39,368 bases of DNA from a virus. This document shows positions 1,023 through 37,236 of the stretch, piece after piece (position 1 is the stretch's first letter; each line of letters starts with the position of its first letter). Where the stretch lies: positions 1 through 39,368 of the IMG/VR virus record IMGVR_UViG_3300044701_003704. The stretch is one strand, 5' to 3'. Under the pieces are notes generated by a model, which saw only the letters and a list, made by a program, of their open reading frames with translations, was not told the origin of the DNA and made no database searches. The position numbers and the translations under genes were made by a program.

Positions 1023-1033
1023 CCTAGGTTGCC
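1023..1033 (-). promoter_or_regulatory. GGNAACYTAGG element (copy GGCAACCTAGG)
   Basis: Minus-strand GGCAACCTAGG in the short gap between the 1064-aa tail gene and the 143-aa gene, pointing to the start at 1002. An 8-bp palindrome TAGCGCTA (1034-1041) lies directly upstream and overlaps the end of the tail gene. Confidence 0.55.
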
Positions 1034-1038
1034 TAGCG

Positions 1039-4000
1039 CTACTGGTTGGCAAAGGCTTGCGGAGGCACCGTGAAATTGCTGGTGTAGCGCGCAACTCCTT
1101 TGGTAATGCGTAAGTCGTCAATATAACCATTAAAGTCTTCAGCTCCTGCGCTAAAGTCCCAACGGCCAATTTGCAGAGTCTTTGTGCTAGATCCAGGTGT
1201 ATTTAGCCCTGATATGGTCCCTGATTGGACGCCATTAATAAATGCGTAGCCTGTGCTGCCATTGCGGACCATTGCAACGTGCGTCCAAGTATTGAGAGCA
1301 AGCGCACCAGTTACATTTATGACCTGCTCGTTAGCGTTGGTTGTTCCATAGAAATAGAATCTAAGGCTGCCCGTACCGTTCAAGCAACGGATGCTGAAAG
1401 CCAGTCCGTCCCAATTATTTGTGGTCGTAGTATAAAAGCCTCGATGCACCAAGCCAAAATTGTAGCTTGGTGTTGTTGCAGGACGAACCCAAAACTCAAT
1501 CGTATAGGTATTGCCAAGGTCGAACCTAGAATCGCTTGCGGCACTTAAATAGTCACCGGTTCCGTCGAGAACTGCGCTTGCGCCACCAAACTTGCTCTCC
1601 GCTGTGCTGATCTGCGCGTTGCCGTTTGCCGTAACGGTGAGCGCGTTAGAACTGCTGTCCGTAAACGTGGTGCTGCCATTGCTGCCATCCATGTGCAGCA
1701 GCAGCGACACCGAACTAAAGTCAGTGTCGATGTAGCCAGTTTTGGGAACCAATGCCGCCACCGCTACATCCTTAGCAGGGACCGCCACGCTGGCACCCGA
1801 CTGCACAGCGGGTGCCGCAGCAGCAAGCGCTAGATCGGCACTAGGCACAAACACTTGGGTTTTGAACTTGCCGGCCTGCTCGGGATTGATGCCAGCCACG
1901 GCAATGGTGCTGAGCGGCACGGCTACAGAGCTGCCGCTTGCGACTGCAGGAGCCACAGCAGCCAAAGCTATTGAAGCTAAGGGTGGTTTGACGCTGCCGC
2001 CGCTGCTGACCTTCGGCACCAATGCCGCCACGCTGATTGATGCCGCCGGCACCTCCACTTTGCGTATGCGGCGCACATCAGCTTGGATGCGCAGGCGCAA
2101 CGCCGGCACCGTGGTGAGCACCTCCAAGGCGTAGTCAAACTTGCTGATCACCATCCCCACCCGCAGCCGGGGTTGATAGACCGCCGTCTCGTTGTACGGC
2201 AGCACAATCGTGGTGGCATTCATCTCGCCATCCACAATCGCTGGCTCCGCTGGCAGCGTCGTCACACCAGGGGCAACGGGGAACCAGAATGTGCCCGTGC
2301 CGCTGACCGCCGCCCAGAACAGCGCATCCGTCGAGCAGACGATGCCGTTGCTGTCAAAGGCCCACTGGTTGCCATTGGCCCGGTACAGCGCCGTCAGGCC
2401 ATCAGCCTTCAGGTACAGCGGTGCAAACGGGGCCACCGGCAGCTTCTCGGGTGCTACCTGCAGGTTGACGCCGCTGCGGTTGCCCAGCAGCAACCTGTTC
2501 TGCACACGCCCGTAACGGTTGGCTTTAGCAGGAGCATCGCTAGGAAAGGTCAAATACGACACCTCACCGCCAACCGTGATTTTCGAAAAGCGGTCATCAG
2601 GGGCATAGGGCAACGAAAACTCAATACGGCGTTGCGCTGTTGCACTGCCTAAAGCCAGCTCAAGCTCACTGTCGCTGTCCACCCGCCAGCCGTTGTTGGG
2701 GTCGCCACCGTCTGCGTACTTAGCGTTGGTGAGTTCGGCACTGCCTGGCCGCTGCTGAAGCCCAATTTCACGCCCAATGGAAATTTGAATTTCAGTACCG
2801 AGATCCTTCAGCTTTTCGGCTTCAATCAATGTAGGAATTACATCGTTTTCTAATTCATCTGGTTCGCTGTCTAGGCTTTGAAAATATGTGGCTAGTTCCT
2901 GCTGGCCTTCTTGGGTGTAGGCACGGCATAGATACTTGCGCGTCAGCACTTTTGCAACTTGAGCGCCGTTGACATTGGTGCCGTACTCGTATCTGGTCGA
3001 CGATTTTTCGGCAATGAACTTGACAGCATCGTCAAGACCATAGTTGATAGCAACGTTGAGGTTACCAGCAACGTCGTAGAGTGTGGTCGATGCGTTTAGT
3101 TTGAGCACCGGCTCCTCAATGGTTACGGTCTGCTCTGTGACTTCTTCGTAGTTTTCAGGCGGGTTTTTGGGGTCGGCATCCAAGGCCGATACGGCATAAG
3201 TGATGCGCTCGGTAGAGACAATGGTGAAAGCTAGGCTGCCTGAGCTGGGGCCAGCTATAGGCGCTGAGCCTGCGATGTGCTGCACATAGCCTGGCGCAAT
3301 AGCGGCAAGAATTGTGTACTCAGTTGTTGTACGCGTCGTGACCCGGTCAAGGTCATCGTACTTTGTTATTGTTTTGGAGCGCGGAATATAGTTGTAGGTG
3401 AAGTATTGAGGTACGGGGAACGGGAAGGGATTGTTGTTGAAAAACGGGTTGTCGACGCGAATGGTGGTAGGCAGGCCAATCGTTTCGTCTTCTTCCCAAT
3501 TCAGCTTTTCGGTATCCTCTTCATTGTCGGATGGCTCTTTGAGCTTCAGCGTGCTGTAGCTCACCGTGACGGCTTCACCTGGGAGCTGGCCCACGCCGAT
3601 GGGGCCTAGGTCTACGATGTCGGTGCTGGTGAAGACAGGACCGGTGCCGCCCAGCACTGCGAGGTTGCGGACCTGCAGCACCTCGTTGGTGTCGAGGTAA
3701 CCGAAGTACGACTCGGACACCAGCAGGTCGCTCAGCACTTGGACGTAGCCACCGCTGAAGTCAAATTGGCTAATGCTGAACGCATTGGTCAGGGGAATGC
3801 TTGACGCAGTGATGCCGAGCTTGCTGAGACACTCGACCATGACCGATCCTGCGTAAATCGGGATGGTGATGATCTTGTCGTCTTCTTCGGTGTAGTCCTC
3901 GTTCTCAGGATCGTCAAAGGCGTCCCACTTGATCGGTTCTTTGAGGTCGCTGAGATAGGAGAGCTTGCAGCCCAGCTCAACTTTGGTGGTGCGGCGGAAC

Positions 4001-4233
4001 GGATCGGCAAAGCTGCTGAGCACCCGGAGCTTGCGGGGGATGCTGCGGGTCACGCCACCTTTGACGTAGCTGAAGGTCACCACCGTGCCGACAGCGGGGG
4101 TGATCAGACCGCTGATCTCGCAGCTGGCCTTGGTCTTGACCAGGCCGCTGCCCTGCAGGTAGTCGTCGCTGATGCTGCCGCTGATCAGGGTTCCCAGCGA
4201 GCAGGTAACGGTGGCGCGGATGTCAATAGCCAT
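1039..4233 (-). CDS. Large tail protein with Ala-rich repeats and C-terminal LamG-like domain
   Basis: This 1064-residue protein has three visible parts. Residues 1 to about 640 form a beta-rich body (ATVTCSLGTLISGSISDDYL and onward) that by size and position resembles a baseplate hub or tail-tip protein. Residues about 720-835 contain five imperfect repeats of the form VP-x-IAVAALxP-x-SGxSV. Residues about 840-1064 resemble a LamG/concanavalin A-like lectin fold: LLLHMDGS, FTDSS, YTIEFWVRP, WTHVAMVRNG, GYIDDLRITKGVARY. Such domains commonly bind sugars, so receptor or cell-surface glycan binding is a reasonable inference. Its ATG overlaps the stop of the upstream 265-aa gene by one base (TAATG). 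A tail-tip or receptor-binding role is inferred, not shown. Confidence 0.75.
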   Translation of the reverse strand: MAIDIRATVTCSLGTLISGSISDDYLQGSGLVKTKASCEISGLITPAVGTVVTFSYVKGGVTRSIPRKLRVLSSFADPFRRTTKVELGCKLSYLSDLKEPIKWDAFDDPENEDYTEEDDKIITIPIYAGSVMVECLSKLGITASSIPLTNAFSISQFDFSGGYVQVLSDLLVSESYFGYLDTNEVLQVRNLAVLGGTGPVFTSTDIVDLGPIGVGQLPGEAVTVSYSTLKLKEPSDNEEDTEKLNWEEDETIGLPTTIRVDNPFFNNNPFPFPVPQYFTYNYIPRSKTITKYDDLDRVTTRTTTEYTILAAIAPGYVQHIAGSAPIAGPSSGSLAFTIVSTERITYAVSALDADPKNPPENYEEVTEQTVTIEEPVLKLNASTTLYDVAGNLNVAINYGLDDAVKFIAEKSSTRYEYGTNVNGAQVAKVLTRKYLCRAYTQEGQQELATYFQSLDSEPDELENDVIPTLIEAEKLKDLGTEIQISIGREIGLQQRPGSAELTNAKYADGGDPNNGWRVDSDSELELALGSATAQRRIEFSLPYAPDDRFSKITVGGEVSYLTFPSDAPAKANRYGRVQNRLLLGNRSGVNLQVAPEKLPVAPFAPLYLKADGLTALYRANGNQWAFDSNGIVCSTDALFWAAVSGTGTFWFPVAPGVTTLPAEPAIVDGEMNATTIVLPYNETAVYQPRLRVGMVISKFDYALEVLTTVPALRLRIQADVRRIRKVEVPAASISVAALVPKVSSGGSVKPPLASIALAAVAPAVASGSSVAVPLSTIAVAGINPEQAGKFKTQVFVPSADLALAAAAPAVQSGASVAVPAKDVAVAALVPKTGYIDTDFSSVSLLLHMDGSNGSTTFTDSSSNALTVTANGNAQISTAESKFGGASAVLDGTGDYLSAASDSRFDLGNTYTIEFWVRPATTPSYNFGLVHRGFYTTTTNNWDGLAFSIRCLNGTGSLRFYFYGTTNANEQVINVTGALALNTWTHVAMVRNGSTGYAFINGVQSGTISGLNTPGSSTKTLQIGRWDFSAGAEDFNGYIDDLRITKGVARYTSNFTVPPQAFANQ

Positions 4234-5030
4234 TACTTCACCAATGCCAGCTCAAGGCTGACCGTGTAGCGCGTGCTCTTGGCACCCGAGAGGATCACGA
4301 TTTCGGCGGTGGCGGTAGGAGCGGAGATCGGGAACCAGCTGTTCATCGCAGGAATGCTGGCCACCACTTCCTCGTACCACGTCTGGATCACCGCCCAGCT
4401 GGCGCTGCTGGTGGTGCCCTCGATCCGCCGCACCTTGGTGGCCGTCAGTGGTCCCTGGATGACATGAGCACCAGTGGCCGTCAGCCCCAACGTGGGACCG
4501 TCTTGGTAGGTGACCGGATCAGCGATCAGCACGATGGTGGCCGCTGCGCTTTCGCCTCCCGCTAAGGAGGGCACGATCTTGTCGGGGCTGCCGGTGACGA
4601 TGTACCAACTGCCAAAGCTGGGCAGGTTGGCTTCGGTGCTCTCGCGGCTCTTTTCCTGCTCGCGCAGGATGACGGCTAATGCTTGGGCCGCATCAACCAT
4701 GGTGACGCTGGCACTGATGTAGGCGCCGGTCTGCTCGCCGCTGGGGGGATCAGCAAACCAGCAGGCCAAGCTGGTGACGCTGATGCCATTGGCGCTGGCG
4801 GTGAGCGCGATGGTGGTGCCCACCACACCCGAAAGTGCCGTGTCCTGATCGCTGATGCGGGTGTTGCGCCAGGTGTTGTATTCGTTCAGCAGCGATTGCC
4901 ATTGCGTTGGGGTGAGCAGGCCGCTGATCTGGAAGGTGCGGGCCGTCAAACCGGTGCGGGCCTCACCCTCGTAGCCGAACGGCTGGACCGTCAGGAGGTT
5001 GCAGGTGAAGCCGCCGAGAGTGATGGTCAT
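4233..5030 (-). CDS. Hypothetical tail protein, 265 aa
   Basis: The gene lies between tape measure and the large tail protein, the usual place of the distal tail protein in siphoviruses. The N-terminus (MTITLGGFTCNLLTVQPFGY) and the regular Thr/Ser/Ala-rich pattern suggest beta structure. The segment TARTFQISGLLTPTQWQSLL lies near residues 28-47. ATGA overlap with the tape measure stop and TAATG overlap with the next gene indicate tight translational coupling. A distal-tail or tail-assembly role is inferred from gene order. Confidence 0.65.
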   Translation of the reverse strand: MTITLGGFTCNLLTVQPFGYEGEARTGLTARTFQISGLLTPTQWQSLLNEYNTWRNTRISDQDTALSGVVGTTIALTASANGISVTSLACWFADPPSGEQTGAYISASVTMVDAAQALAVILREQEKSRESTEANLPSFGSWYIVTGSPDKIVPSLAGGESAAATIVLIADPVTYQDGPTLGLTATGAHVIQGPLTATKVRRIEGTTSSASWAVIQTWYEEVVASIPAMNSWFPISAPTATAEIVILSGAKSTRYTVSLELALVK

Positions 5031-7906
5031 GGGGAAACCGCTCCAGCAAGGATGTCGCCATAGGCTTGGCTGCTGCCGTCCGCGTTGACTTGGACGTTGA
5101 CGGCCCAGTTCTTACCGTTGAGCGCGGCGATTGTGCTCTGCAGATCTTTTGTGATCTTTGCCAGCGCTGCAGTGTTATCGCTTAGCGCTTTCTGGGTATC
5201 GACGGACGTGTCAACGGCTTGCTGCTCGGTTCTAACCGCCTCGATGAACTGGAGGATGGATGCGTTTACGCCGCTGCGGGAACCCGTGAACTCGGGTGCA
5301 TAGCTGACGCCACGCAACTGCTTGAACTGCTCCTGCGCTTCGCGGAACCGGGGCAGCAGCTGGTTAAAAGTGCGCTCCTCTTGATTGACGCGGTCCTGCG
5401 GACTCAGGAATTGATTGAGGCCGCCAGAGCCGGTGCGCAGCTTTTGGAGGTTCAGAAATGCCGATTCAAGATCGTTGCGTAGCTTTTCCCCAGATTTTCG
5501 AAGTTCGGACGCTGTATCACGTAACGCAGTGGCGCCTTCAATAATTCGAAGCTTGGTTTCTTGGGCAGCCACTTGCTGCTGCCCGACGAGACGGGAAGCG
5601 GTGGACTCATCCCCGATTTGACGAGCAGCCGTGATCTGGGCCCCAATGTCTTGCTCGCGACGGCGAGCTTCGGCGATGCCGTTTTTGATGCTCAGCGCTT
5701 GCTCGATCGTGCTGCGGAGCACGCCTTGCTCTACAGATCCCAGTTCACGGGCGGCGGCGATGCGCTCCGCAACGGATTGCAGCGCCAACTGGTTTTGAGT
5801 TGATTCAAGAGACGTGGTTGCTTGCAGAGCGCGCTTGCGCTGGTCCTCCGCGTCAATGGCAGCGCGCTTTTGTAGGTCAATTGCTGATAGCTGCAAGCGC
5901 AAGGCACGAACAGAAGCACCCGTTTCGTCAAGCGGTGCGGCGATAAACGCGGCCTTGGCCTGTTCACGCTGGGCATCCAGCAGCAATAGTTGATCCTGTA
6001 AGCGAAGCTCGGCTTCGGTGTTCTTGCGCCCGGCACGCACCGCTGATGAAATGTCACGTTGAACCCGAACACGGCGCTCCTCGATCGCAAGGATGTCGGC
6101 TTGGATCTTTTGGATGGCGCCGCTATCGGCAATCTGCTGCAGTTGGAAATCAGCACTGGCTATCTGAGCGCCGCCCGCAGCTGCAAGGCCGGCACCGCCG
6201 AGAGCTAAACCGAGCGTTGCTCCGCCTGTAAAAGGTGCAGCGGCAAGTCCTGCGGCACCTAACAACACGCCTCCAATGCCTAATGCCGTTCCTTGGCCGC
6301 GAGTTGCAAGAGCACCACGTTCAGTTGCTCTACCGCCTGGCAAATTAAGGATGCGCCGAACAATCTGGTCAATCCAGCTGATGAATTGAGTCGCTGGGCC
6401 CGCAAGAAGATAGCCGATGCGCTCTTGGATGTCTCCAACACTGCGAGCAAAGGCGTCATTAGCTGCAGCAACTTTTAGAACACCAACCGAGTCAATTGTT
6501 CTCGCTAGATCCGACTGAATCAGAGCATTGGCCTCTGAGGTGCGTCCTAAGTCAATTAAAACTTTCGCGAGCTCCTCAACACCCTTGCCGCTGAGGTTGG
6601 CGCCTTGGATCAGGGCGTCAAAGTTTTTAATTGGGTCCTGAAGGGCTTTAGCCAGCTCTCCAAACTTGTCAGCAGTCTGGCCAACCAGGGTGCCAACCAA
6701 ACTGCCGGCAAAGCCGCCGCCGCCTCCAAAAGCTCCCCCCAGAAGGCCGCCGATCAGGCCGCCACCAGCAGCGCCACCGCCTTGGCCAAACAACAGCGGG
6801 AACGCACCGCCAATCAGTGCCGAACTGATCAGCCCCCCAGCGTCGGGGCCTCCTCCGCTACGACGGCGGGCCGCCGATGCCTGCTTACTTTCTGCGCCGA
6901 TTGCTTTGTTGGTCGCGTCCACCAAGCTCAGTCGGCTCTTGGCCAGCTGTTGCTCGGCTTTGATTGCCGCGGTATTGGGCACTGTTAGCAGTCGCCCAAA
7001 GCCGTCTAAAGGATCGCGTCCGCCAGTAGAGGCGTAATTCTGCAGACCTTGGATTTTGCCGGTGCGGCGTTGCTGGCGCTCCCGCGCGCGGCGCTCTTCC
7101 GGCGTCTCCTCGCCGGTAAAGACAAACTGGCTGGGGCCGCGACCCGGCGGCAGCGCCTTAGGTTGGCCCTCGGCGTTAAAAATGTTGCCGTAGCGGGATG
7201 CTGCGCTACGGGCACGCTCTAGTGCGTCAGCTTGGCGCTCGATTTCAGCGGTGAGCTTGCCAAACTTAGCGTCAGTTACTGAGGTAACACTGGCCGCTTG
7301 CTGCAGCGCTTGGATGTAAAGCTGGATTGCAGCAGGGCTGTCACCGATGGACCGGCTAAAAGCCAACAGCTGGTCGGTGCCCTTGAAACTACTCTGGCCG
7401 CCAGAGCCGCCCAGCTTGAAAAGGCTCTCAAGTGACTTGATCTCCTCTAAGCCGCTAAACAGCTGCTTCTGACTTGCTTGCGCAGCGGCTTGCGTGAAAT
7501 TGCGGAACTCAGCGCTGCCTATCTTGACGTTGGCGGCCAGGGTACGAAACGCAGCGCCCTGCTGCTGCAATGACGCAAGGCTGGTAGCTAAAGGCTGCTC
7601 GCCGTTAATAACAGCGCGCGTGTAATTGTTAATAGACGTGCCTGCCTTAAGCGCGTCGTCACCTAACTTCTCTAGGTTTTTACTGTTGAGATTAAGCGGG
7701 GTCCCGAGGAGTTTTTGAAACTGAGACTGTAGTGTTTTTGCAGACGTTTCTAGCTTGCGAAATTGTTGCTGGGCGTCGCTTACATCCAGCCGGAAGTTGA
7801 TCGGCTTTTGCTTTTCAACAAGGGAGCGGGCTTTGCCTAAGTCCTGCTCAAAGCTCTTTAGGTCAACGTTTATGCGGAGTACCGCTGTGCCGAGTTCGTC
7901 TGCCAC
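5027..7906 (-). CDS. Tail tape measure protein
   Basis: The protein has 959 residues, a GTG start (7904-7906) and the typical tape measure layout. A long helical, Gln/Ala/Lys-rich N-terminal part is followed by a glycine-rich hydrophobic stretch at about residues 355-410 (GGLIGGLLGGAFGGGGG), a second hydrophobic segment at about 540-590, and a long coiled coil rich in Gln, Arg and Glu. Tape measure proteins set tail length and are thought to help DNA cross the envelope. At the usual 0.15 nm per residue this predicts a tail of roughly 140 nm. The next gene starts inside its stop codon (ATGA). Confidence 0.88.
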   Translation of the reverse strand: MADELGTAVLRINVDLKSFEQDLGKARSLVEKQKPINFRLDVSDAQQQFRKLETSAKTLQSQFQKLLGTPLNLNSKNLEKLGDDALKAGTSINNYTRAVINGEQPLATSLASLQQQGAAFRTLAANVKIGSAEFRNFTQAAAQASQKQLFSGLEEIKSLESLFKLGGSGGQSSFKGTDQLLAFSRSIGDSPAAIQLYIQALQQAASVTSVTDAKFGKLTAEIERQADALERARSAASRYGNIFNAEGQPKALPPGRGPSQFVFTGEETPEERRARERQQRRTGKIQGLQNYASTGGRDPLDGFGRLLTVPNTAAIKAEQQLAKSRLSLVDATNKAIGAESKQASAARRRSGGGPDAGGLISSALIGGAFPLLFGQGGGAAGGGLIGGLLGGAFGGGGGFAGSLVGTLVGQTADKFGELAKALQDPIKNFDALIQGANLSGKGVEELAKVLIDLGRTSEANALIQSDLARTIDSVGVLKVAAANDAFARSVGDIQERIGYLLAGPATQFISWIDQIVRRILNLPGGRATERGALATRGQGTALGIGGVLLGAAGLAAAPFTGGATLGLALGGAGLAAAGGAQIASADFQLQQIADSGAIQKIQADILAIEERRVRVQRDISSAVRAGRKNTEAELRLQDQLLLLDAQREQAKAAFIAAPLDETGASVRALRLQLSAIDLQKRAAIDAEDQRKRALQATTSLESTQNQLALQSVAERIAAARELGSVEQGVLRSTIEQALSIKNGIAEARRREQDIGAQITAARQIGDESTASRLVGQQQVAAQETKLRIIEGATALRDTASELRKSGEKLRNDLESAFLNLQKLRTGSGGLNQFLSPQDRVNQEERTFNQLLPRFREAQEQFKQLRGVSYAPEFTGSRSGVNASILQFIEAVRTEQQAVDTSVDTQKALSDNTAALAKITKDLQSTIAALNGKNWAVNVQVNADGSSQAYGDILAGAVSP

Positions 7907-7926: not shown

Positions 7927-7958
7927 CCTAGTTTTCCGAGAGGTGGCGGGAAACTAGG
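7927..7958. promoter_or_regulatory. Divergent pair of GGNAACYTAGG elements
   Basis: The 69-bp gap between the tape measure gene (minus) and the inverted plus-strand pair holds GGAAAACTAGG on the minus strand (7937-7927) and GGGAAACTAGG on the plus strand (7948-7958). The two form an inverted repeat with a 10-bp spacer. Each copy faces one of the two divergent genes at 20 bp and 17 bp from its start. Confidence 0.6.
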
Positions 7959-7975: not shown

Positions 7976-8368
7976 GTGGCTTCGGCGTTTACGGCTCTCC
8001 AAAATGCGACGGTGACCTTCACCCTGCCGGCAGCGGGGGTCGTCACTGACGCCGGCACCGGTAACGTCCGCCCCGCTACCGCAACAGTCACCCTCAGCGC
8101 CTGGCTCAAAGCTGAAAACGTCGCCGAAACCACCTACCCCGGCGTCAATGTCATCACCACCCTCTACGAGGGATATGTCACCTCGGGGACGCTGGATAGT
8201 CGTGTGCAGGTCGGGACGCTGGGCACCGTTGCCTTTGCAGGGGCTGCGGCGGTGGACTGTGAGGTGCTAGAGGCGCGTCTGCCCTATGGCGAGACTGGCG
8301 TGCTCGGCGCTGTGCTCACATCGGCGCTGGGCGCCAAGCTGCGGTTAGCTAGCCGGGCCCAGAGCTGA
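7976..8368 (+). CDS. Probable head-tail joining (head closure) protein, inverted
   Basis: The frame starts with GTG (7976-7978) behind the purine-rich GGGAAACGGGACGG and encodes 130 residues. The product is a compact, probably beta-barrel protein (NATVTFTLPAAGVVTDAGTG, then ETTYPGVNVITTLYEGYVTS). It overlaps the next gene as TGATG. Siphoviruses normally place the head-closure and tail-completion genes between connector and tail tube, which is roughly this spot, but here the pair runs on the opposite strand to all neighbouring morphogenesis genes. The head-closure call comes from gene order and size and is tentative. Confidence 0.6.
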   Translation: MASAFTALQNATVTFTLPAAGVVTDAGTGNVRPATATVTLSAWLKAENVAETTYPGVNVITTLYEGYVTSGTLDSRVQVGTLGTVAFAGAAAVDCEVLEARLPYGETGVLGAVLTSALGAKLRLASRAQS

Positions 8369-8874: not shown

Positions 8875-8923
8875 AAAAGCCGCCCCAGCTAGAGGCGGCT
8901 GTTGAGGGCCTGAGGCCCTCAAC
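8873..8923 (-). terminator. Minus-strand terminator after the tail tube gene
   Basis: Two stem-loops stand side by side. A perfect 10-bp stem with 3-nt loop (8901-8923, GTTGAGGGCC/GGCCCTCAAC) includes the tail tube stop codon. A 7-bp GC stem (8878-8900, AGCCGCC/GGCGGCT) is followed on the minus strand by six T. This fits an intrinsic terminator separating the tail tube transcript from the convergent plus-strand pair. Confidence 0.75.
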
Positions 8924-9680
8924 TGACGGTGGCGATCGTGAAGGTCGGGACAGTGTCGCCGCTGGCGCCCCCCACGTCGCCCAGCGCAACAGTGAGGACA
9001 TCGCCTGTGCGGTAGTTGCTGCCGCCCGCCACGATGGTCGGGGTGGCGGTAACCGTGCCGCCAGCTGCCACCACGATAGTGGCAGTAGCACCCTTGCCCG
9101 AACCGATGCCGGCAGCAGGGTTGGACGAGATCAGCGACACACCTGTGTAGGTCGCAGGGGTCAGTCCCGAGCCAGCAGTGGTAATGGTCAGCGTCGCAGC
9201 GGGGTTGCCCTGTGGGTAGAACTTATATGCGCCGTAGCCGGTGAGGGTAAAGCTGACCTTGCTAATGTTGCCTGCGACAATATCCTCGGAGAAGTCGCCG
9301 ATCTGGGCCAGGCCGGCATGAACTTCAGAGTCGTCGCCGGAGGCGTCGGTGACGGGGGTCTCGCGATACCACTCCAGCAGAGTGCCGTCGGCAGCTTTGA
9401 TCGCGGCCTTCTTCAGGATCTCGTACCCGGCGTCCGTGACGTCCAGGTTCATCGAACAGGGGATGCTGTACGACTGGCTGGTGATCAGGTTCGACTGGAA
9501 ACCTTGCTCGGAGTCGTAGTCAACGACTGAGGTGGATTCCGAGGTGCCCTGGATGCCAGTGTTATCCAGCGACAGGATGCGGGTCATCCCGGCACTGGTG
9601 GTGGGCGCAGTGCTAGCCGTGCTGCCCAGCTTGACGTACAGCTTATAGCCGAGCGCCGCGAAAAAACTGCCGGTAGCCAT
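8919..9680 (-). CDS. Major tail tube protein with C-terminal accessory domain
   Basis: The 253-residue protein has an N-terminal tail-tube-like part, residues 1 to about 155: LGYKLYVKLGS, SLDNTGIQGTSESTSVVDYD, QSYSIPCSMNLDVTDAGYEI. This resembles TP901-1-type tube proteins that stack into the hollow tail. Residues about 158-253 form a Gly/Thr-rich add-on with the pattern GSGLTPATYTGV, GSGKGATATIVV, GGSNYRTGDVLTVAL. Similar add-ons are common surface decorations in phage virion proteins. The start is preceded by a GGCAACCTAGG element 29 bp upstream, and the gene ends in a strong terminator, consistent with high expression. Confidence 0.75.
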   Translation of the reverse strand: MATGSFFAALGYKLYVKLGSTASTAPTTSAGMTRILSLDNTGIQGTSESTSVVDYDSEQGFQSNLITSQSYSIPCSMNLDVTDAGYEILKKAAIKAADGTLLEWYRETPVTDASGDDSEVHAGLAQIGDFSEDIVAGNISKVSFTLTGYGAYKFYPQGNPAATLTITTAGSGLTPATYTGVSLISSNPAAGIGSGKGATATIVVAAGGTVTATPTIVAGGSNYRTGDVLTVALGDVGGASGDTVPTFTIATVS

Positions 9681-9709: not shown

Positions 9710-9720
9710 CCTAGGTTGCC
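9710..9720 (-). promoter_or_regulatory. GGNAACYTAGG element (copy GGCAACCTAGG)
   Basis: Minus-strand copy between the sigma-like gene (stop at 9731) and the tail tube start (9680), 29 bp before the ATG. Confidence 0.55.
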
Positions 9721-9730: not shown

Positions 9731-10285
9731 CTACGCCTCTCCAGCCTCTAGCGATTCCCATGGTGTGGGTCGGGGGCACAGGTGGCGGCGGAAACCTTGC
9801 GTTTCGTGCGATAGCGATTGGATGGAGAACAGCGCCAGTTTCAGCGTGTCAATGCTGATGCTCAGCTGGGCGCAGACGTCGTGCTTACTTGCGCCCGCGC
9901 GGATCATGTACCGGGCCCGCAACCCGAGGGAGCGCATTGAAGCGGGGGCCTTGATGCTCCAGTTGTGGTCGCGAATGTAGTGGCGGATCTCGCCTTCGCA
10001 GAACACGCCGAGCAGCGTTGAGAACTTGCCCTTTTCGGCGTCCCAGGCGCGGCACGTCTTGACAAACGCGATGTCGATGCAGCTGAAGATGTCGTCGCTA
10101 GAAACCGACGGGTACTTGCGGCACATCTTGCCGCCCATCATCCGCACCAATCCCTGGTGCTCTTGGTACATCCGCGCCGTGAAGCGGCGCTCGTCCGTCG
10201 TCAGCGGGGTGGCGAGATAACCCGTGCGAGGACGCCGCCGAACCGCTGGGGTGGGGGACTCGGTAGCGGGGGCGGCGCTGCTCAC
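9731..10285 (-). CDS. Sigma-70-like factor (region 2 type) in the structural module
   Basis: The 184-residue protein starts with GTG (10283-10285). Residues about 43-115 match sigma region 2 of the SigB/F/G style: HQGLVRMM, DDIFSCIDIAFVKTCRAWD, EKGKFSTLLGVFCEGEIRHYIRDHNWSIKAPASMR in broken form. Residues about 118-155 look like a region 3/4-style helix-turn-helix (LRARYMIRAGASKHDVCAQL). A normal separate region 4 is not obvious, so it is shorter than a typical sigma. It sits between the connector and tail tube genes, so it could direct late transcription or act as a sigma mimic. Function is inferred from the region 2 match. Confidence 0.7.
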   Translation of the reverse strand: MSSAAPATESPTPAVRRRPRTGYLATPLTTDERRFTARMYQEHQGLVRMMGGKMCRKYPSVSSDDIFSCIDIAFVKTCRAWDAEKGKFSTLLGVFCEGEIRHYIRDHNWSIKAPASMRSLGLRARYMIRAGASKHDVCAQLSISIDTLKLALFSIQSLSHETQGFRRHLCPRPTPWESLEAGEA

Positions 10286-10327: not shown

Positions 10328-10897
10328 TTAACTGCGTACAACGGCGCAGACGCCACCGATGCCGCTGCCGGTGCCGCTGGTCGTCAGGCACCCAAGGATG
10401 GAGGCGAGGTGCGGGAGCACCGTGAGCGGTGTGACCGGTGACGTCGAGCTGGGCGTGACGTCCGTGCGCCACTCCAGCTCCATCACGTCGAGCTTCAGGC
10501 GGCGGAGGTCGCGATTGGGGATGCCGGGCACCAGAGCGCCGCTGGCGGTAGTGCTCTGAAGCAGCGTTGGCGACGACAACAACGCATTGGCGAGGTCGAA
10601 TGTGGCTAGCTCAACTTCGCGGGGGATCGTGTCGTCGGCGATCTCCTTGTCGCTGCAGGAGGCGTCGGTGCGGGGCCAGCTCAACGCTTGCGTGGTCGTG
10701 GCACGGGTGCCGGTGTACTTCAGCGTCTCTAGGCCGTTGGTGGCGGTGATTAGGGCCCGTGATTTGTTGTCGCTGGTCGCTGTGGTCCACGCCAACGTGC
10801 CCAGCATCGTGTCGGCAATCGCGTCCGCTGCCGCTGCCGTTAGGTAGCTGTTGGCGTTGGCGGCGCCGGCAGTGGCGACAATCGCAGGCGCAGGCAT
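10328..10897 (-). CDS. Head-tail connector protein (DnaT-like phage family)
   Basis: The 189-residue product begins MPAPAIVATAGAANANSYLT and contains ALITATNGLETLKYTGTRAT, SWPRTDASC and PREVELATFDLANALLSS. This arrangement of an N-terminal NSYL-type start, a W-R segment and helical I-P-x-x-V-x-x-A-x-x-x-L-A is seen in the phage proteins labelled putative DnaT-like ssDNA-binding, which act as head-tail connector subunits. Position after the head genes and before the tail tube agrees. A GGGAAACTAGG element lies 17 bp before the ATG. Confidence 0.65.
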   Translation of the reverse strand: MPAPAIVATAGAANANSYLTAAAADAIADTMLGTLAWTTATSDNKSRALITATNGLETLKYTGTRATTTQALSWPRTDASCSDKEIADDTIPREVELATFDLANALLSSPTLLQSTTASGALVPGIPNRDLRRLKLDVMELEWRTDVTPSSTSPVTPLTVLPHLASILGCLTTSGTGSGIGGVCAVVRS

Positions 10898-10914: not shown

Positions 10915-10925
10915 CCTAGTTTCCC
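10915..10925 (-). promoter_or_regulatory. GGNAACYTAGG element (copy GGGAAACTAGG)
   Basis: Minus-strand copy 17 bp before the connector start. It overlaps the end of a small stem (CCCGC-TAAC-GCGGG) whose loop holds the TAA stop of the preceding 47-aa gene. Confidence 0.55.
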
Positions 10926-11665: not shown

Positions 11666-11676
11666 CCTAGGTTTCC
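11666..11676 (-). promoter_or_regulatory. GGNAACYTAGG element (copy GGAAACCTAGG)
   Basis: Minus-strand copy 27 bp before the 77-aa gene. The TAG inside the element is the stop codon of the preceding 52-aa gene (11667-11669), so the element overlaps coding sequence here. Confidence 0.55.
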
Positions 11677-14227: not shown

Positions 14228-14258
14228 CCTAGGTTGCCCTCGCGCGCGAAGCGCGCGA
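14228..14258 (-). promoter_or_regulatory. Stem-loop plus GGNAACYTAGG element before the scaffold gene
   Basis: On the minus strand a perfect stem CTCGCGCGC-TTC-GCGCGCGAG (14258-14238) runs directly into GGCAACCTAGG (14238-14228), 21 bp before the scaffold start. This is one of the clearest examples of the composite element. Confidence 0.6.
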
Positions 14259-16919: not shown

Positions 16920-16930
16920 CCTAGGTTTCC
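16920..16930 (-). promoter_or_regulatory. GGNAACYTAGG element (copy GGAAACCTAGG)
   Basis: Minus-strand copy only 11 bp before the portal start. Upstream lie a palindrome GCACCTACTAGGTGC and a diverged copy of the CGTCGCC-GAA-GGCGACG stem-loop. Confidence 0.55.
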
Positions 16931-21017: not shown

Positions 21018-21027
21018 ATTTTGGCGT

Positions 21028-21596: not shown

Positions 21597-21626
21597 GCTA
21601 GGTTGCCCCGTCGCCTTCGGCGACGA
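21597..21626 (-). promoter_or_regulatory. Stem-loop plus GGNAACYTAGG element before the small terminase candidate
   Basis: Minus-strand stem CGTCGCC-GAA-GGCGACG (21626-21610) is followed by GGCAACCTAGC (21607-21597), 23 bp before the GTG. The stem-loop is identical to the one at 12342-12358. Confidence 0.6.
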
Positions 21627-30919: not shown

Positions 30920-30930
30920 GGCAACTTAGG
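30920..30930 (+). promoter_or_regulatory. GGNAACYTAGG element (copy GGCAACTTAGG)
   Basis: Plus-strand copy after the terminator, with a second GGCAAC directly following. It precedes the uncertain small frame ending at 31143. Confidence 0.5.
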
Positions 30931-31309: not shown

Positions 31310-32605
31310 TCAAATGCGCAGATGCACGTGGGCTACCTGCTGATCCCGTATCTCGATCTGGGACACCAGCTGCTGAAACAGGGCCCGTAGCCGCTCCGGT
31401 GCCAGGTGCGACAAGGTTCGGGGGCGCGAAAGCAGCTCCAGCAACTGCGGGTCGACGGGGTCGGATTGCTGCAACCGCGCCAGCCGTTCCCGCTTGGCGC
31501 TGATCGCGTCGGCGAGGTCAGGGTCGTTCAGGGCCTCTAGCCGCTCAATGGCATCCCGCAGCACCTGCGCCTCGGGTGGCTCCTCGGCGATCAACGTGGC
31601 TAGCGATAACGCGCGGCCGCTGATTGCCACTAGCACGGCATCGCGGATCAAGCTTTCGTGCGTGCTCTTGTACTGCTGGGCGCAGCCGCGGGTCTTGCAC
31701 ACCACTGCCGGAATCGTGCGACTGCCGGCATAGCTCATGGCTTTGCCGCAATGGCCGCACCGGCACAGGCTTGTCAGGAGCCGCGGGATGATCGTGCTGT
31801 TGTGACCCCACATCCGCCGGTTCTCTTCGAGCTGGGCCGTGATGCCCTCATACTCCGCATGGCTAACGAGCGCTAGGTGTGTGTCCCACACTTCCTCGGC
31901 GTAGGTGTGGTTGGCTTGCTGCTGATAGCCCAGCCCGCCGCGCAGGATCGGGTTCACCAGCCAGGCGCGCACCGCGCGGCAACTATGTAGCGGGATGTCG
32001 CCGCGGCCTTCGGCATCCCACCGGTCCAACGCCGTATTCATCCGCCACTTGCTGCTTTGCAGCAGCGCCAGGAACTGCTCGGCGCGGGGCCACTCCACAG
32101 GGTCCGGCTCTAACGCCGTGCGCTGCGCGTTGATGCGATAGCCCCATGGCGCTCGGCCGCGCAGCGGCAGGCGGCGCTTGCGGCCCTCGCGTAGGCCCGC
32201 CTTGATCCGCTGGGACAGCATCCGGCTCTCCATCTCAGCCATCGTCGTCATGATCCGGCTCATGACGAAACCCTGAGGCGTCTCGGACTCGATCACGCCG
32301 CCGTCGATCGCGGTCAGCTTCACCCCGCGCTTAGCCGCAAACGCAATGGCGGCGTCTACATCGGCAGCGTCTCGGCCCAGACGGTCAACGCGAGTGATCA
32401 CCACCTCTGAGATGCGGCGTGACTCGATCAGGGCCAGCAGCTCTAGGTAGCCCGCACGGTCGGTTTCGCGACCGCTCTGCACGTCCTCAAGGATGCGCTC
32501 GACACCCGTCGCCTGCACACGGGCGCGCTGGTTCTCCAGCGCTGAGAGCTGCTCGCCTTTCGCAGTTGAGACTCGTATGTAGCCGACTCGCGGCTTGAGT
32601 CCCAT
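31310..32605 (-). CDS. Large serine recombinase (XisF-like)
   Basis: The 431-residue protein has the serine recombinase catalytic domain: VGYIRVSTAKGEQ with nucleophile S13, VVITRVDRLGRD (R72, D74, R75, R78), and the long helix GFVMSRIMTTMAEMESRMLS. A recombinase domain (RLPLRGRAPWGYRIN) and a zinc ribbon CRCGHCGKAMSY ... VCKTRGC follow, then a coiled-coil part. It resembles the cyanobacterial XisF family that excises DNA elements in heterocyst-forming strains. It could integrate the phage or invert DNA. It lies opposite to its neighbours, between the polymerase and integrase operons, as if inserted. Confidence 0.85.
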   Translation of the reverse strand: MGLKPRVGYIRVSTAKGEQLSALENQRARVQATGVERILEDVQSGRETDRAGYLELLALIESRRISEVVITRVDRLGRDAADVDAAIAFAAKRGVKLTAIDGGVIESETPQGFVMSRIMTTMAEMESRMLSQRIKAGLREGRKRRLPLRGRAPWGYRINAQRTALEPDPVEWPRAEQFLALLQSSKWRMNTALDRWDAEGRGDIPLHSCRAVRAWLVNPILRGGLGYQQQANHTYAEEVWDTHLALVSHAEYEGITAQLEENRRMWGHNSTIIPRLLTSLCRCGHCGKAMSYAGSRTIPAVVCKTRGCAQQYKSTHESLIRDAVLVAISGRALSLATLIAEEPPEAQVLRDAIERLEALNDPDLADAISAKRERLARLQQSDPVDPQLLELLSRPRTLSHLAPERLRALFQQLVSQIEIRDQQVAHVHLRI

Positions 32606-32898: not shown

Positions 32899-33131
32899 TG
32901 GATCTCGTCAACCACCCCCCGCACTACCGCCAAGGCGCTGTTGAGTGCATCGACGCCATCCGCGCCAGCCTTGGCGACGATGGCTTTCTCTCCTACTGCC
33001 AGGGCAACGCCATTAAGTACTGCTGGCGCTGGCGGCACAAGGGCGGTGTGCAGGATCTACATAAAGCCGCTTGGTACGTCGCCGAGATGATCAAGGTGAG
33101 CGAAACGCGGGTGCCGCAGGAGGCCGCATGA
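32898..33131 (+). CDS. DUF3310 family protein, 77 aa
   Basis: The protein opens VNHPPHYRQGAVECIDAIRA and continues FLSYCQGNAIKYCWRWRHKG, then GVQDLHKAAWYVAEMIK. These are the conserved features of DUF3310: N-H-P-x-H-Y, G-x-x-E-C-I-D, G-N-x-I-K-Y-x-W-R and K-x-x-x-D-L-x-K-A-x-W-Y. The family is common in phages, often annotated as nucleotide kinase-like, but its activity is not settled. It overlaps the integrase start as ATGA. Confidence 0.85.
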   Translation: MDLVNHPPHYRQGAVECIDAIRASLGDDGFLSYCQGNAIKYCWRWRHKGGVQDLHKAAWYVAEMIKVSETRVPQEAA

Positions 33132-33979
33132 CTCTGACCGTTCTGGAGGCGTGGTGCCGGTTCCGCGATGAGCGGGCCGTGTCGCTTTGCGCCACCTCTC
33201 TTTCCACTGATTACGCGCAGGCGGAGCGCTGGCTCAGCCGGTGCCCTGTTCAGGATCTGGGGCAGGGGCGTGAGGTGCTGACGTGGGTGCTGACACAGGA
33301 GCCGCCCAAGGCGGCGCTGCGCGTCGGCATGTTCGTCAAAAGCCTCTACCGCTGGGCCGCATCTGCCGACATCGCCCTAGTGCCGGTCAACCCCGTCGCC
33401 TCCTTCCGCTTCCCGAAAAAGCCGCAGCGTGATGAGGAGATCGTCGTCATCCCCAAAGCTGAGCTGGCGACCGTCATCGCTGGGTTGCGGCAGCGGCGTA
33501 AGGGGGCGCCGCAGTGGGATCTCTGGGCCCAGTTCATGCTTCAGACCGGGATGCGGACCGGCGAAGTCCGGGCCCTCACTAGCGCCGATGTCACGGGCGG
33601 CAAAGCCCTCGTCCACGCCAACTACACCCTGACGCACGGGCTCAAAGCCTCGACCAAGACCAACAAAAAGCGGTACGTGCCGCTCAATGAGGTAGCGCGG
33701 GCAACTTTGGAGAGGACCGGGGCCCAAGACGGTTTCTACTTCCCGTGGAATCGGTATGCGTTTCAGTCGTTCTTCGCCAAGCGTATGCAGAAATTGCATA
33801 GCGAGGGGCGCATCTCCAAGCGCTACAGGCCCTACGACCTGCGCCACACCGCCATCTCGGGCTGGTTAGAAGCGCAGGTGCCGGTGGCACAGGCGGCGTC
33901 CTGGGCGGGTAATACCGCCGAGGTGATTTGGAAGCACTACGCCAACGCCACCGCTGACTACGACATGCCCATCCTCTAG
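33128..33979 (+). CDS. int: Tyrosine recombinase / phage integrase
   Basis: The 283-residue protein has an N-terminal core-binding part (residues 1-100) and a catalytic domain. Visible residues are R143 in LQTGMRTGEVRAL, lysines near 176-181 in KASTKTNKKRY, R239 in PYDLRHTAIS and the nucleophile Y271 in VIWKHYA. The box before the Tyr reads WAGNTAEVIW rather than the common LGH form. It would join attP with a host attB site. The start at 33128 overlaps the DUF3310 stop. No attachment site was identified. Confidence 0.88.
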   Translation: MTLTVLEAWCRFRDERAVSLCATSLSTDYAQAERWLSRCPVQDLGQGREVLTWVLTQEPPKAALRVGMFVKSLYRWAASADIALVPVNPVASFRFPKKPQRDEEIVVIPKAELATVIAGLRQRRKGAPQWDLWAQFMLQTGMRTGEVRALTSADVTGGKALVHANYTLTHGLKASTKTNKKRYVPLNEVARATLERTGAQDGFYFPWNRYAFQSFFAKRMQKLHSEGRISKRYRPYDLRHTAISGWLEAQVPVAQAASWAGNTAEVIWKHYANATADYDMPIL

Positions 33980-34199: not shown

Positions 34200-35237
34200 A
34201 TGCACAACGACTTTCGGTCCTCGGCGCTGGACCGCTACCTCAACGACATCTCCCGCTACCCACTGATGAGTCCCGAGGAGGAGATCCGCCTCGGCAAGCT
34301 CGTAAAAAGCGCCAAGGCACTTAAGGCGGAAACGCGGGAGCTAACGCCCGATGAGCAGCGCATCGTGCGCCGCGGCGATAAAGCCATACGCCGCTTTGTC
34401 GAAGCCAACCTCAGGCTGGTTGTCTACATCGCTAAGCGGTACGCCAACCGCCAGCCCCAGATGATGGACATGCTCGATCTGGTGCAGGAAGGCGCTATCG
34501 GCTTGGTGCGCGCGGCGGAAATGTTCGACCCCGAGCGCGGCTACAAGTTCTCCACCTACTCCTTCTGGTGGTGTCGGCAGGCGATGAGCCGGGCCCTGCA
34601 GAACCAGGAGCGCATGATCCGCCGGCCCAGCTCTGTTGCCGAACTCGCCGGCAAACTTCACAAGACTGCGCAGAAAGAATCGCAGCGGCTGGGGCGTACT
34701 CCCACTACCGCCGAACTCGCCGCAGCGCTCAAAGTCAAAGAAGAGGAGATCCACCTGCTCATGGAGCGTGGCCTCAACGTCGCATCGCTTGACGCCATGG
34801 TCGGCGGCATGGAGGACAAGTCGTTGATCGAGACGATGGCGGACCCCAACTCACTCAACACCGACGAGCAGGACATGGAGATGGATCTGCAGACCCGGAT
34901 GCCCCTAGTGCTCTACACCATGGAGCAGCTTCCCGAGAAGGAGCGCCTCTTTATTCAAAAGCGCTTTGGCATCAATGGCTATCTGCCGCACACCTATCAG
35001 GAGATTGCGGTGGCGACTGAAATCAGCCGTGAGCGGGTCCGGCAGGTCATTGACACCGGCCTGCGCAAGATCAGGCTGCAGATGGCTAAGAACGCTCAGG
35101 CTCTAAATGGAACCCATAAAGCCGAAGAACCAGCCGCACCAGCCACGGCACCCGAATCGCGCCCTCAGATTCGACCCGCATCGCCGCGGGGGCGGGACTT
35201 ACATCCCGCGTGGCTTGGTCTGCCGACAGTTGCATGA
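34200..35237 (+). CDS. Group 2-like RNA polymerase sigma-70 factor
   Basis: The 345-residue sigma has region 1.2 (ALDRYLNDISRYPLMSPEEE, about 9-35) and region 2 (about 66-140: VEANLRLVVYIAKRYANR, MLDLVQEGAIGLVRAAEMFD, YKFSTYSFWWCRQAMSRALQ). It also has region 3 (about 145-205) and region 4 (about 235-297: LPEKERLFIQKRFGI, the HTH TYQEIAVATEISRERVRQVI). Region 1.1 is absent, as in group 2 sigmas. It resembles cyanobacterial alternative sigmas and could redirect host RNA polymerase to phage promoters. The last 45 residues are Pro/Ala-rich and overlap a convergent gene. Confidence 0.85.
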   Translation: MHNDFRSSALDRYLNDISRYPLMSPEEEIRLGKLVKSAKALKAETRELTPDEQRIVRRGDKAIRRFVEANLRLVVYIAKRYANRQPQMMDMLDLVQEGAIGLVRAAEMFDPERGYKFSTYSFWWCRQAMSRALQNQERMIRRPSSVAELAGKLHKTAQKESQRLGRTPTTAELAAALKVKEEEIHLLMERGLNVASLDAMVGGMEDKSLIETMADPNSLNTDEQDMEMDLQTRMPLVLYTMEQLPEKERLFIQKRFGINGYLPHTYQEIAVATEISRERVRQVIDTGLRKIRLQMAKNAQALNGTHKAEEPAAPATAPESRPQIRPASPRGRDLHPAWLGLPTVA

Positions 35238-35439
35238 CTAGCTCTAGTTCGGCAATGTGCGCAGTTGCCTTGCGCATGATCGACTGCTGCAAAAACGTCT
35301 GCTCCAACGTGGAGCAGGCGAGGTCGGCTACACGCTCCGGATGTTTTGTGGCGTTTTCGCGGAGGACTCGTTTGCCATGCTCCAACTGAACAGCAGCTGC
35401 GATCGACAGCTCGGGCACCATCCACTCACCCCAGCTCAT
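35086..35439 (-). CDS. Hypothetical helical protein, 117 aa
   Basis: The product starts MSWGEWMVPELSIAAAVQLE and has HGKRVLRENATKHPERVADL, then CSTLEQTFLQQSIMRKATAH in a long helix and a hydrophobic-basic end (RVPWLVRLVLRLYGFHLE). The last 152 bp lie opposite the end of the sigma gene, a convergent overlap that is not a simple shadow because the reading starts outside it. A GGCAACCTAGC element stands 24 bp before the ATG. The C-terminus might bind membrane. Confidence 0.6.
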   Translation of the reverse strand: MSWGEWMVPELSIAAAVQLEHGKRVLRENATKHPERVADLACSTLEQTFLQQSIMRKATAHIAELELVMQLSADQATRDVSPAPAAMRVESEGAIRVPWLVRLVLRLYGFHLEPERS

Positions 35440-35442: not shown

Positions 35443-35474
35443 GGGAACCTAGTAGGAGGTCTGGCTAGGTTGCC
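35443..35474. promoter_or_regulatory. Divergent pair of GGNAACYTAGG elements
   Basis: GGGAACCTAGT on the plus strand (35443-35453) and GGCAACCTAGC on the minus strand (35474-35464) form an inverted pair between the divergent 117-aa and 57-aa genes. A strong AGGAGGT (35454-35460) lies between them and serves the plus gene. Confidence 0.6.
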
Positions 35475-35643
35475 TCTAGTGCCTGAACCGACGATTGAGA
35501 GACTTATCGACGACGCTGGGCCTATCTGGCGGGTGACCTATTCCGGGCACACCCGCTATCACCGCCAAGACTGGCAGGCGTGGTGGTACTTCGAGTGGGC
35601 GCGGGCCCTCTATGCCGTGGACCGCTTAGCACCGCCTCAATAG
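35470..35643 (+). CDS. Small hypothetical protein, 57 aa
   Basis: TTG at 35470 lies 9 bp behind AGGAGGT. GTG at 35479 is an alternative giving 54 residues. The protein has PEPTIERLIDDAGPIWRVTY, then HTRYHRQDWQAWWYFEWARA and a short end. The high Trp/Tyr content suggests a compact binding domain. It ends 7 bp inside the convergent endolysin gene. No family is recognised. Confidence 0.5.
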   Translation: MPLVPEPTIERLIDDAGPIWRVTYSGHTRYHRQDWQAWWYFEWARALYAVDRLAPPQ

Positions 35644-36722
35644 TCCCAGCGGACTCTGGGGCGTGGATTGCCGGCTCTGATGCCTAAATGCACGAAGCCC
35701 TTGGGTGCTCCGTAGCCCAGTGAATACGGCCAATTCTTGTCGCACCAATCTTGGACAGCCTTTATGGGTACGCCCTCGATGAAGAAGTCGACGGCTCCGC
35801 ATCCTGGCTTGTAGAGATGCTCACTGTCACTGGCCCCGCCCACAGATTGATTCACTGCTGGTGGCCGGTGGCCGCTGGTGATGATGACTGGCTCGTCACC
35901 GAAATGTGCTCTCACTTTCTCCAGGAAGACGCACAGTTCCGTGGCGATGTCACATTGCGCTTGGTTGCGGAACCTGCGCCTCTCCTCTCCGAGACACAGC
36001 TCGCCGTAGGTGATGTGCGGCGTCACGCGCGTCGAAAACGGCGACGCTGGCGTAAAGCGGGGCGCTGATTGCTGCAGCGGCGGCTTACCAGTGAACACCG
36101 CTACCTCATCGGCGCGGCGGCGGGTTAAACCCTCCATCGTTTTGCCGGTGGCCTTGTTCCACTTGGGCAGCTCCTGCGGCACCACGACCTGAGCCGACTC
36201 GCCCGCCAGTAGCCGTTTGCGCAGGGTCGACTCCTCTACGGCGCCTAGGCCCACGTTCCAAGCCCACGACAGCAGGGCCGCCTGTTGGTTGGCGCCGTAC
36301 TGCCGCATGGCAGGGATCAACTCGTACAGCTTCGCGGCGTAGCGGTGGATCTCGCTGCGCAACAGCTCATCGGCCAGCGCCTGCGAAATCTTGTCGCCTT
36401 CTCGAACTGGGGTCCCGTTGACCGTCGTCATTCCGTAGCCGATCGTCCACGGCTCACCGCCAGTCGCAGGGTCCGGATAGGCGGCCAACCGAGCGCCCTC
36501 CCACTTTTTGATCAACGCCTGAGCTGGGGCCAAGTAGATCGGCTCCTGCTGCTTGCCGCTTTGGCTCCACGCTTGGAACCATGGGCGGTCCCGGCGCATG
36601 GCAGTCGCGTAGCCATTAGCGACGATGTCCTCCTGCAGCTCGGCGATCGCGGCGAGCTGGTGCGGCAGCCCCCGGTTGAACCGAAACAACTGCTCCAGCG
36701 TGATGGCCTTGTCGTTGCTCAT
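35637..36722 (-). CDS. Endolysin: GH24 muramidase fused to M15 peptidase
   Basis: The 361-residue protein has two cell-wall cutting domains. Residues about 60-210 are a T4-lysozyme-type muramidase with E75 (KKWEGARL), D84 (YPDP) and T93 (PWTIGYG), and a later WAWNVGLGAVEESTLRKRLL and TMEGLTRRRADEVAVF. Residues about 235-361 are an M15 (VanY-like) D-Ala-D-Ala peptidase with SGHRPPAVNQ, the metal ligands H302 and D312 in SEHLYKPGCGAVDF, and H345 in GFVHLG. Together they would cleave both glycan and peptide bonds. The gene starts inside the stop of the small membrane protein (ATGA). Confidence 0.85.
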   Translation of the reverse strand: MSNDKAITLEQLFRFNRGLPHQLAAIAELQEDIVANGYATAMRRDRPWFQAWSQSGKQQEPIYLAPAQALIKKWEGARLAAYPDPATGGEPWTIGYGMTTVNGTPVREGDKISQALADELLRSEIHRYAAKLYELIPAMRQYGANQQAALLSWAWNVGLGAVEESTLRKRLLAGESAQVVVPQELPKWNKATGKTMEGLTRRRADEVAVFTGKPPLQQSAPRFTPASPFSTRVTPHITYGELCLGEERRRFRNQAQCDIATELCVFLEKVRAHFGDEPVIITSGHRPPAVNQSVGGASDSEHLYKPGCGAVDFFIEGVPIKAVQDWCDKNWPYSLGYGAPKGFVHLGIRAGNPRPRVRWDY

Positions 36723-36961
36723 TCGCCTTCGCGACGAACAAATCGCCCGTGCTCATCACGCGCTGGCGGCTTGTGCAGCTCGGGGTTGTAGGTGTTGTAC
36801 CCCCGCTCGTAACCGCCCCGTGCCGCAGCGCCCAAGCCCATGATCGCTAGGGCGCCGTTCCAACGCTCGGCGCTCCAGTTGCCGGTGCCTGCATACAGCA
36901 GCCCAATGATCACAGGGATCAGCAAGCCCGCGTCAACTTGGCCCTTGACGTACTTGCCCAT
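36719..36961 (-). CDS. Small membrane protein, possible holin, 80 aa
   Basis: Residues about 9-28 (VDAGLLIPVIIGLLYAGTGN) and about 36-48 (GALAIMGLGAAAR) are hydrophobic, and the end is charged (ELHKPPARDEHGRFVRREGE). This size and topology, together with the ATGA overlap with the endolysin gene, fit a holin that times lysis. No specific holin family is recognised, so the call is from context. Confidence 0.55.
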   Translation of the reverse strand: MGKYVKGQVDAGLLIPVIIGLLYAGTGNWSAERWNGALAIMGLGAAARGGYERGYNTYNPELHKPPARDEHGRFVRREGE

Positions 36962-36963
36962 GA

Positions 36964-37212
36964 TTAGAGCCTGGCTTCAAGCTTGGCCACCCGCTGCTCC
37001 ACGTCGTTTAGGCGCGTGAAGGTCTCCCGGCGGTCCGCCTTGAGATCAACGTGCAACTCGTCGAGCCGTGATGCCACCGTGTTCACCGCTTCGGTGAGAC
37101 GGATGACAGCCTCTCTGCCCTCATTGTTGCGGCGGCTGAAGCCCATCGCGCCCATGGCCGCGACTGAGATGCTTGCGCCAGCACACGCTGCTAAGACCTC
37201 AATCACGACCAA
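36964..37212 (-). CDS. Membrane-anchored coiled-coil protein in lysis module, 82 aa
   Basis: The longest start is TTG (37210-37212) with GGGAG 10-15 bp upstream; GTG at 37206 is an alternative. Residues about 2-25 form a membrane span (IEVLAACAGASISVAAMGAM). Residues 35-82 form a coiled coil with heptads (LTEAVNTVASRLDELHVDLK, FTRLNDVEQRVAKLEARL). It could be a spanin-like, holin or antiholin component. A GGCAACTTAGG element stands 13 bp before the start. Confidence 0.55.
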   Translation of the reverse strand: MVVIEVLAACAGASISVAAMGAMGFSRRNNEGREAVIRLTEAVNTVASRLDELHVDLKADRRETFTRLNDVEQRVAKLEARL

Positions 37213-37225
37213 CGGCAGGGCTCTC

Positions 37226-37236
37226 CCTAAGTTGCC
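37226..37236 (-). promoter_or_regulatory. GGNAACYTAGG element (copy GGCAACTTAGG)
   Basis: Minus-strand copy 13 bp before the first membrane protein of the lysis module. It overlaps the last codons of the ribbon-helix-helix gene. Confidence 0.55.

Follow-up and report, generated by a model that had tools for sequence, protein, structure and literature searches.

An intergenic 11-bp element ahead of late operons in an uncultured phage as the probable promoter of a small phage-encoded sigma factor

One short sequence recurs between the genes of a 39,368-base virus record in IMG/VR (the whole stretch analysed here, which we call the window; GC 62%), and the question it raises is what reads it. 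An earlier note, made from the letters of the DNA, had described thirteen copies of an 11-bp element, written as GGNAACYTAGG, and had offered five options for it: a promoter for a phage sigma factor, an operator, an RNA-processing site, a translation signal, or a boundary sequence for module exchange. Of these, the phage-sigma promoter is the one that the present analysis favors, while the other four fared poorly. Judged from sequence, the element is very probably a late promoter without a -35 element, which would be read by a sigma factor of 184 residues encoded by the phage itself.

The window carries genes for terminase, portal, scaffold, capsid, connector, tail, and endolysin, along with those for a primase, a family A polymerase, recombinases, and two sigma factors. 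The nearest cultured phages of its portal protein are the cyanophages S-2L, S-H1, KBS-S-2A, and MED4-184, at 33-36% identity, and its endolysin is 65% identical to that of S-LBS1 and 58% to that of S-CBS3. A megablast of the window against phages gave no match; the phage collection holds no close relative. A temperate siphovirus with a putative cyanobacterial host is the most likely identity of the virus. A serine recombinase gene (31310-32605) and a tyrosine recombinase gene (33071-33979) lie near each other. Relatives of the small sigma and of the element were also seen in two contigs of bacterial MAGs: one (L223) sits in a contig of a cyanobacterial MAG, and the other (L222), a 3.3-kb contig labelled Rhodoferax, is probably mis-binned. 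A stretch of 2.7 kb upstream of the terminase large subunit (18327-21027) holds nothing but short ORFs, the main strand lacking a convincing late gene, and is possibly an inserted or non-coding stretch.

A search of the window with GGNAANYTAG returned 13 sites, which are the thirteen copies reported earlier, each at its position and on its strand, with none in addition. The consensus itself was slightly off: position 6 is A in several copies, and the last base of three copies is C or T. The earlier note had proposed a comparison with shuffled sequence; against the 13 observed, 100 dinucleotide shuffles gave a mean of 1.08 matches and a maximum of 4. When compared with a CDS list compiled by hand, which accounts for 79% of the window, none of the 13 overlaps a gene (probability by chance about 2e-9), which bears out the earlier placing of the copies between genes. 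Matches with one mismatch lie mostly inside genes, and one of them, at 33700, was set aside as a chance match within the integrase gene. A start codon in the same direction follows about 11-29 bp downstream of 12 of the 13 copies, so that the orientation described earlier holds for these; it does not hold for the plus-strand copy at 30920, after which no clear gene start was found. These distances were taken from the ORF list and conserved starts; a simple coding-score gene finder missed several likely starts in the window and was not used for them. In the window, no copy stands before the polymerase, the primase, the recombinases, or the large sigma, nor, as the earlier note had said and the CDS list confirms, before genes that start within the stop of the previous gene. 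The window genes are mostly without a Shine-Dalgarno sequence.

The copies are best appreciated by following them along the window with the genes they precede. On the minus strand, GGCAACCTAGC (21597..21607) stands before 21028-21573 (phrog_34910), whose position suggests the terminase small subunit, GGAAACCTAGG (16920..16930) before the portal gene 15304-16908, and GGCAACCTAGG (14228..14238) 21 bp before the scaffold gene 13469-14206, after which comes the major capsid gene. They are followed on the same strand by GGAAACCTAGG (11666..11676), 27 bp before 11405-11638, and by GGGAAACTAGG (10915..10925), 17 bp before the connector gene 10328-10897. The gene of the small sigma (9731..10285, minus strand) is next downstream of the connector, and between it and the tail gene 8919-9680 lies GGCAACCTAGG (9710..9720, minus strand). 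Two copies are placed back to back, GGAAAACTAGG (7927..7937, minus strand) 20 bp before the tape-measure-like gene 5027-7906 and GGGAAACTAGG (7948..7958, plus strand) 17 bp before 7976-8368; divergent genes thus do have divergent copies, as reported earlier, and this pair recurs in six relatives (L009, L011, L012, L013, L019, and L066). The 7927 site has orthologous sites in G002, G004, G023, and G024 as well. Near the left end, GGCAACCTAGG (1023..1033, minus strand) is found 20 bp before 571-1002 (phrog_644, structural region).

Toward the right end, GGCAACTTAGG (37226..37236, minus strand) heads the lysis block made up of 36964-37212, 36719-36961, and the endolysin gene 35637-36722, and GGCAACCTAGC (35464..35474, minus strand) precedes 35086-35439. 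The latter is faced by GGGAACCTAGT (35443..35453, plus strand), with a short plus-strand ORF downstream. Unlike those of the back-to-back 7927/7948 pair, the transcripts predicted from these two boxes cross, and their occupancy should be mutually exclusive. The copy at 30920..30930 (plus strand, GGCAACTTAGG) is a perfect box after an A-run and a GC-rich stretch, and possibly has a small gene or a small RNA behind it. The suggestion of a module boundary fits this distribution poorly, as the element heads late operons of all kinds rather than the joints of modules.

The same arrangement is seen in relatives of the virus. With the 184-residue sigma-like protein as the query, 50 viral contigs were found, most of which carry the element, with a reversed control near zero; most contigs without an exact match have a variant at the same place, behind the stop codon of the sigma gene and about 20 bp before the tail gene. 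Over the sigma-carrying loci and their close relatives on incomplete contigs, GGNAANYTAGG gave 105 dereplicated copies, 102 of them intergenic and 84 within 40 bp upstream of a same-strand start, whereas 60 column-permuted patterns gave a mean of 6.5 sites, 0.13 of them near starts. The distance to the start is most often 17-23 bp, in a range of 2 to 36 bp. In each of seven long relatives (40-48 kb) there are 9-10 copies, against 0-3 for the reversed pattern; these copies precede terminase-small, portal, scaffold, connector, tail, tape-measure, fibre, and small lysis-region genes; none precedes a polymerase or primase gene. The earlier note had named frequent copies inside genes, random orientation, and a lack of conservation in relatives as grounds for giving up its idea, and the counts show none of the three. 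In G002 (47,605 bases; L249 1-183 and the end of L251), box pairs repeated at both ends lie exactly 47,422 bases apart, which suggests a terminal repeat and hence a complete genome.

To describe the anatomy of the element while avoiding circularity, one site was selected by location, namely the one that follows the sigma gene, in 67 different relatives; in the window this is the site at 9710. Among these place-anchored sites, G1, G2, A4, and A9 never vary, and A5, T8, and G10 each occur in 65-66 of the 67. Position 7 takes C or T, and positions 3 and 6 are unconstrained. At position 11, G has a share of 72%, which accounts for the final C or T of three window copies. Downstream, an A is preferred four bases past the box (79%) and six bases past it (63%). 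The column information of 78 sites drawn from all genes confirms the conservation of the box and of the A-rich stretch after it, and in the 40 bases upstream there is no conserved -35 element, only a weak base just before the box. The core is too invariant among the relatives for an analysis of base-by-residue covariation. GC-rich hairpins end right at the box at window 14207-14260 (site 14228) and at 21597-21625; a hairpin as part of the element was rejected, with a mean folding z-score of only -0.24 across the 78 sites, and these two may serve as terminators for the operon that comes before.

The bases with the greatest weight in extended -10 promoters of the sigma-70 family are a G at -14, an A at -11, and a T at -7. 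The conserved columns would fall into this register if the box spans -14 to -4, with G1 at -14, A4 at -11, and T8 at -7. Transcription would then start about 4 bases after the box, giving leaders of about 14-20 nt. The earlier note had considered the spacing too close to the start codon for a sigma-70-type promoter; that objection loses its force when the element is itself the -10 region. In some relatives only 2 bp separate the box from the annotated ATG (for example, L030 at 10423), so that the preferred downstream A would coincide with the first base of the ATG, suggesting leaderless messages. These cases need leaderless mRNA or a later true start, and they count against the promoter reading.

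The candidate reader of the box is the 184-residue protein. It matches PHROG sigma families (E 7.5e-12) and has no match in Pfam, even at E up to 1. It aligns with FliA across regions 2 and 3. Its AlphaFold model is moderate (pLDDT 74), and the best Foldseek matches of the model in the PDB are sigma-28, sigma-B, sigma-S, and the cyanobacterial SigA, with modest E-values. The presence of region 2, the region of core binding and -10 recognition, is seen in the PHROG match, the FliA alignment, and the Foldseek matches to region 2 domains, while region 4, which recognizes the -35 element, is absent: both the alignment and the model stop after region 3 and a C-terminal peptide. This peptide, H.CPRPTPWE.LE (CPRPTPWExLE), is almost invariant in an alignment of the window protein and its relatives (A1), behind a variable region, and the model confidence there is low. 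Such a pattern would suit a docking peptide. T4 gp55 offers an analogy only: past its sigma domain lies a conserved C-terminal peptide by which it binds the sliding clamp (PMC2988020). Cultured phages have no good homologue of the small sigma.

The gene of this sigma and the element occur together. In 151 non-redundant loci, the element was found in all 89 with the sigma, at 3.0 per 10 kb against 0.38 for the reversed control. Another 13 loci with a close capsid or portal and no sigma are fragments ending before the place of the sigma gene, and carry 2.25 per 10 kb; in the remaining 49, capsid relatives without the sigma, the density of 0.25 per 10 kb is lower than that of their control (0.66). 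The GC content differs between the sigma group (0.60) and the sigma-less group (0.52), a difference accounted for by the reversed control. The cultured cyanophages S-H1, S-2L, PSS2, MED4-184, S-LBS1, S-CBS1, S-CBS3, and S-CBS4 show no clear excess of the element (PSS2 and S-CBS4 being partial). Contigs positive for the motif without a sigma were discounted, as the contig either ends before the place of the sigma or has low-level matches only, as in L130 (where the reversed control is as high as the element count), L098, and the AT-rich MED4-184. In the capsid tree a sigma-less clade is nested among clades with sigma and element, so the two change together; the tree implies few events, and the co-occurrence does not amount to many independent tests. 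Of 67 sigma-less relatives, 62 retain the connector gene, which therefore does not explain the element either. Equally good co-variation with the element is shown by the tail gene adjacent to the sigma, a gene with no known role in transcription.

Putting these observations together, we infer that the box GGnAAnYTAGg, at about -14 to -4, would be the whole sequence-specific part of a late promoter of the extended -10 type, with an A-rich start some 4 bases further on. Its reader would be the host RNA polymerase equipped with the 184-residue sigma, regions 2 and 3 making the contact and the lack of region 4 leaving no contact at -35; binding of the sigma, the start sites, and the late timing are all predicted from sequence. 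Each late operon, for packaging, head, connector, tail, fibres, or lysis, would have a copy of its own. Since the small sigma gene follows the connector gene, which has its own box at 10915, the sigma would lie inside a boxed operon and amplify its own supply in a self-reinforcing loop. A candidate trigger of this loop is the second phage sigma of the window, an RpoD-like protein of 345 residues with regions 1.2, 2, 3, and 4 (34200..35237, plus strand).

The large sigma could also be considered as the reader of the element, or a host sigma in its stead. Most long relatives encode the large sigma, and host polymerase would be required if there is no T7-type polymerase; a PF00940 search gave no match to one, but its positive control was silent as well. 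The large sigma is nevertheless probably not the reader. Homologues of it are found in S-LBS1, S-CBS1, and S-CBS3, all with 0 copies of the element, so it does not explain the element; G015, covered over 40 of its 40.8 kb, has no match to the large sigma and yet has 10 copies, and the box has neither a -35 element nor a TATAAT. A promoter for the large sigma or a host sigma is, on this evidence, quite unlikely. A promoter for a single-subunit polymerase of the T7 type, which a compact box near the start with a GG end might recall, is the least likely reading: 14 long records gave no PF00940 match, in the search with the silent positive control, and there is no such polymerase among the annotated large proteins of the window.

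An operator of the stoperator kind, that is, a scattered one-directional repressor site that silences the genome of a lysogen, as in mycobacteriophage L5, would suit a phage that looks temperate by its serine and tyrosine recombinases, and an element that is asymmetric, intergenic, and oriented with transcription. Yet the element is limited to late operons, with none at the replication and integration genes, it keeps a start distance of 17-23 bp with an A-rich, start-like region downstream, and no repressor gene was recognised, whereas a sigma gene co-occurs with it; we consider this reading quite unlikely. A translation or mRNA signal like that of the cluster K mycobacteriophages, or an mRNA cleavage site, is very unlikely. 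Copies do lie just 5' of start codons, in genes mostly without a Shine-Dalgarno sequence, but the distance of 2 to 36 bp is too variable for a ribosome signal, and operon-internal and replication genes lack the element. Moreover, it has no conserved RNA fold and no likeness to the anti-Shine-Dalgarno complement, and its presence tracks the sigma gene.

A late promoter read by the small sigma thus remains the preferred reading. A wider proposal, plausible as a whole though a shade short of probable, is that in a large and so far uncultured lineage of cyanobacterial siphoviruses, late expression depends on an undescribed minimal class of sigma, consisting of regions 2 and 3 and the C-terminal peptide. 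It would have the GC-rich extended -10 box as its only signal, stand in a cascade below the RpoD-like phage sigma, and amplify itself, the peptide replacing region 4 by docking on the polymerase or another partner. Late transcription control in cyanobacterial siphoviruses is poorly understood, and here a regulator gene and its probable target are paired across dozens of uncultured genomes and in none of the cultured relatives examined. The box offers an immediate means of calling late operons in uncultured cyanophages. The pair is compact and testable and may be orthogonal to host promoters, and a sigma without region 4 on a GC-rich box without a -35 element makes a clean case for studying minimal promoter requirements.

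Phage sigma factors that use short -10-type boxes are already known, namely T4 gp55 and those of phiEco32 and 7-11 (PMC4331800). A literature search did not find the element sequence in connection with cyanophages, and because of this, and the lack of a good sigma homologue in cultured phages, the pairing of sigma and box, the box sequence, and the lineage appear to be undescribed. By description, phiEco32 and 7-11 are alike in having a phage sigma distantly related to the sigma-A family; their promoters are tAATGTAtA and TGTGATGTTATA (PMC4331800). There, too, an element of 9-12 bp that resembles an extended -10 and is low in copy number stands before late and middle operons and was found by intergenic comparison; the present element differs in its sequence, its GC-rich flanks, its one copy per late operon, and the phylum of its host.

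Scattered repeats of two mycobacteriophage groups bear an outward likeness to the element. The SAS of cluster K are asymmetric 13-bp repeats that occur many times in a genome and point along the following gene; these (GGGATAGGAGCCC), with AGGAG in them, lie 3-7 bp from the start and are limited to non-structural genes (PMC3203893), while the window element lies 17-23 bp from the start of late genes only and has no Shine-Dalgarno, thus differing from SAS in both sequence and spacing. The stoperators of cluster A (L5) are likewise scattered asymmetric sites oriented with transcription, but they are bound by a repressor and have no link with the starts of late operons or with a sigma gene (PMC9283540).

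Among cellular sigmas, the sigma-28/FliA class aligns with the small sigma over regions 2 and 3, from which the latter differs in having no region 4, no -35 element, and another -10. The late box of T4 is AT-rich, TATAAATA. By description, gp55 resembles the small sigma in being a very small sigma, with similarity confined to domain 2, that uses late promoters with a -10 only (PMC2988020), and, by analogy only, in having a separately conserved C-terminal peptide behind a variable linker (PMC2988020). It differs in acting with gp33 and the sliding clamp, whereas the small sigma of the window virus has region 3 as well and is paired with a longer box.
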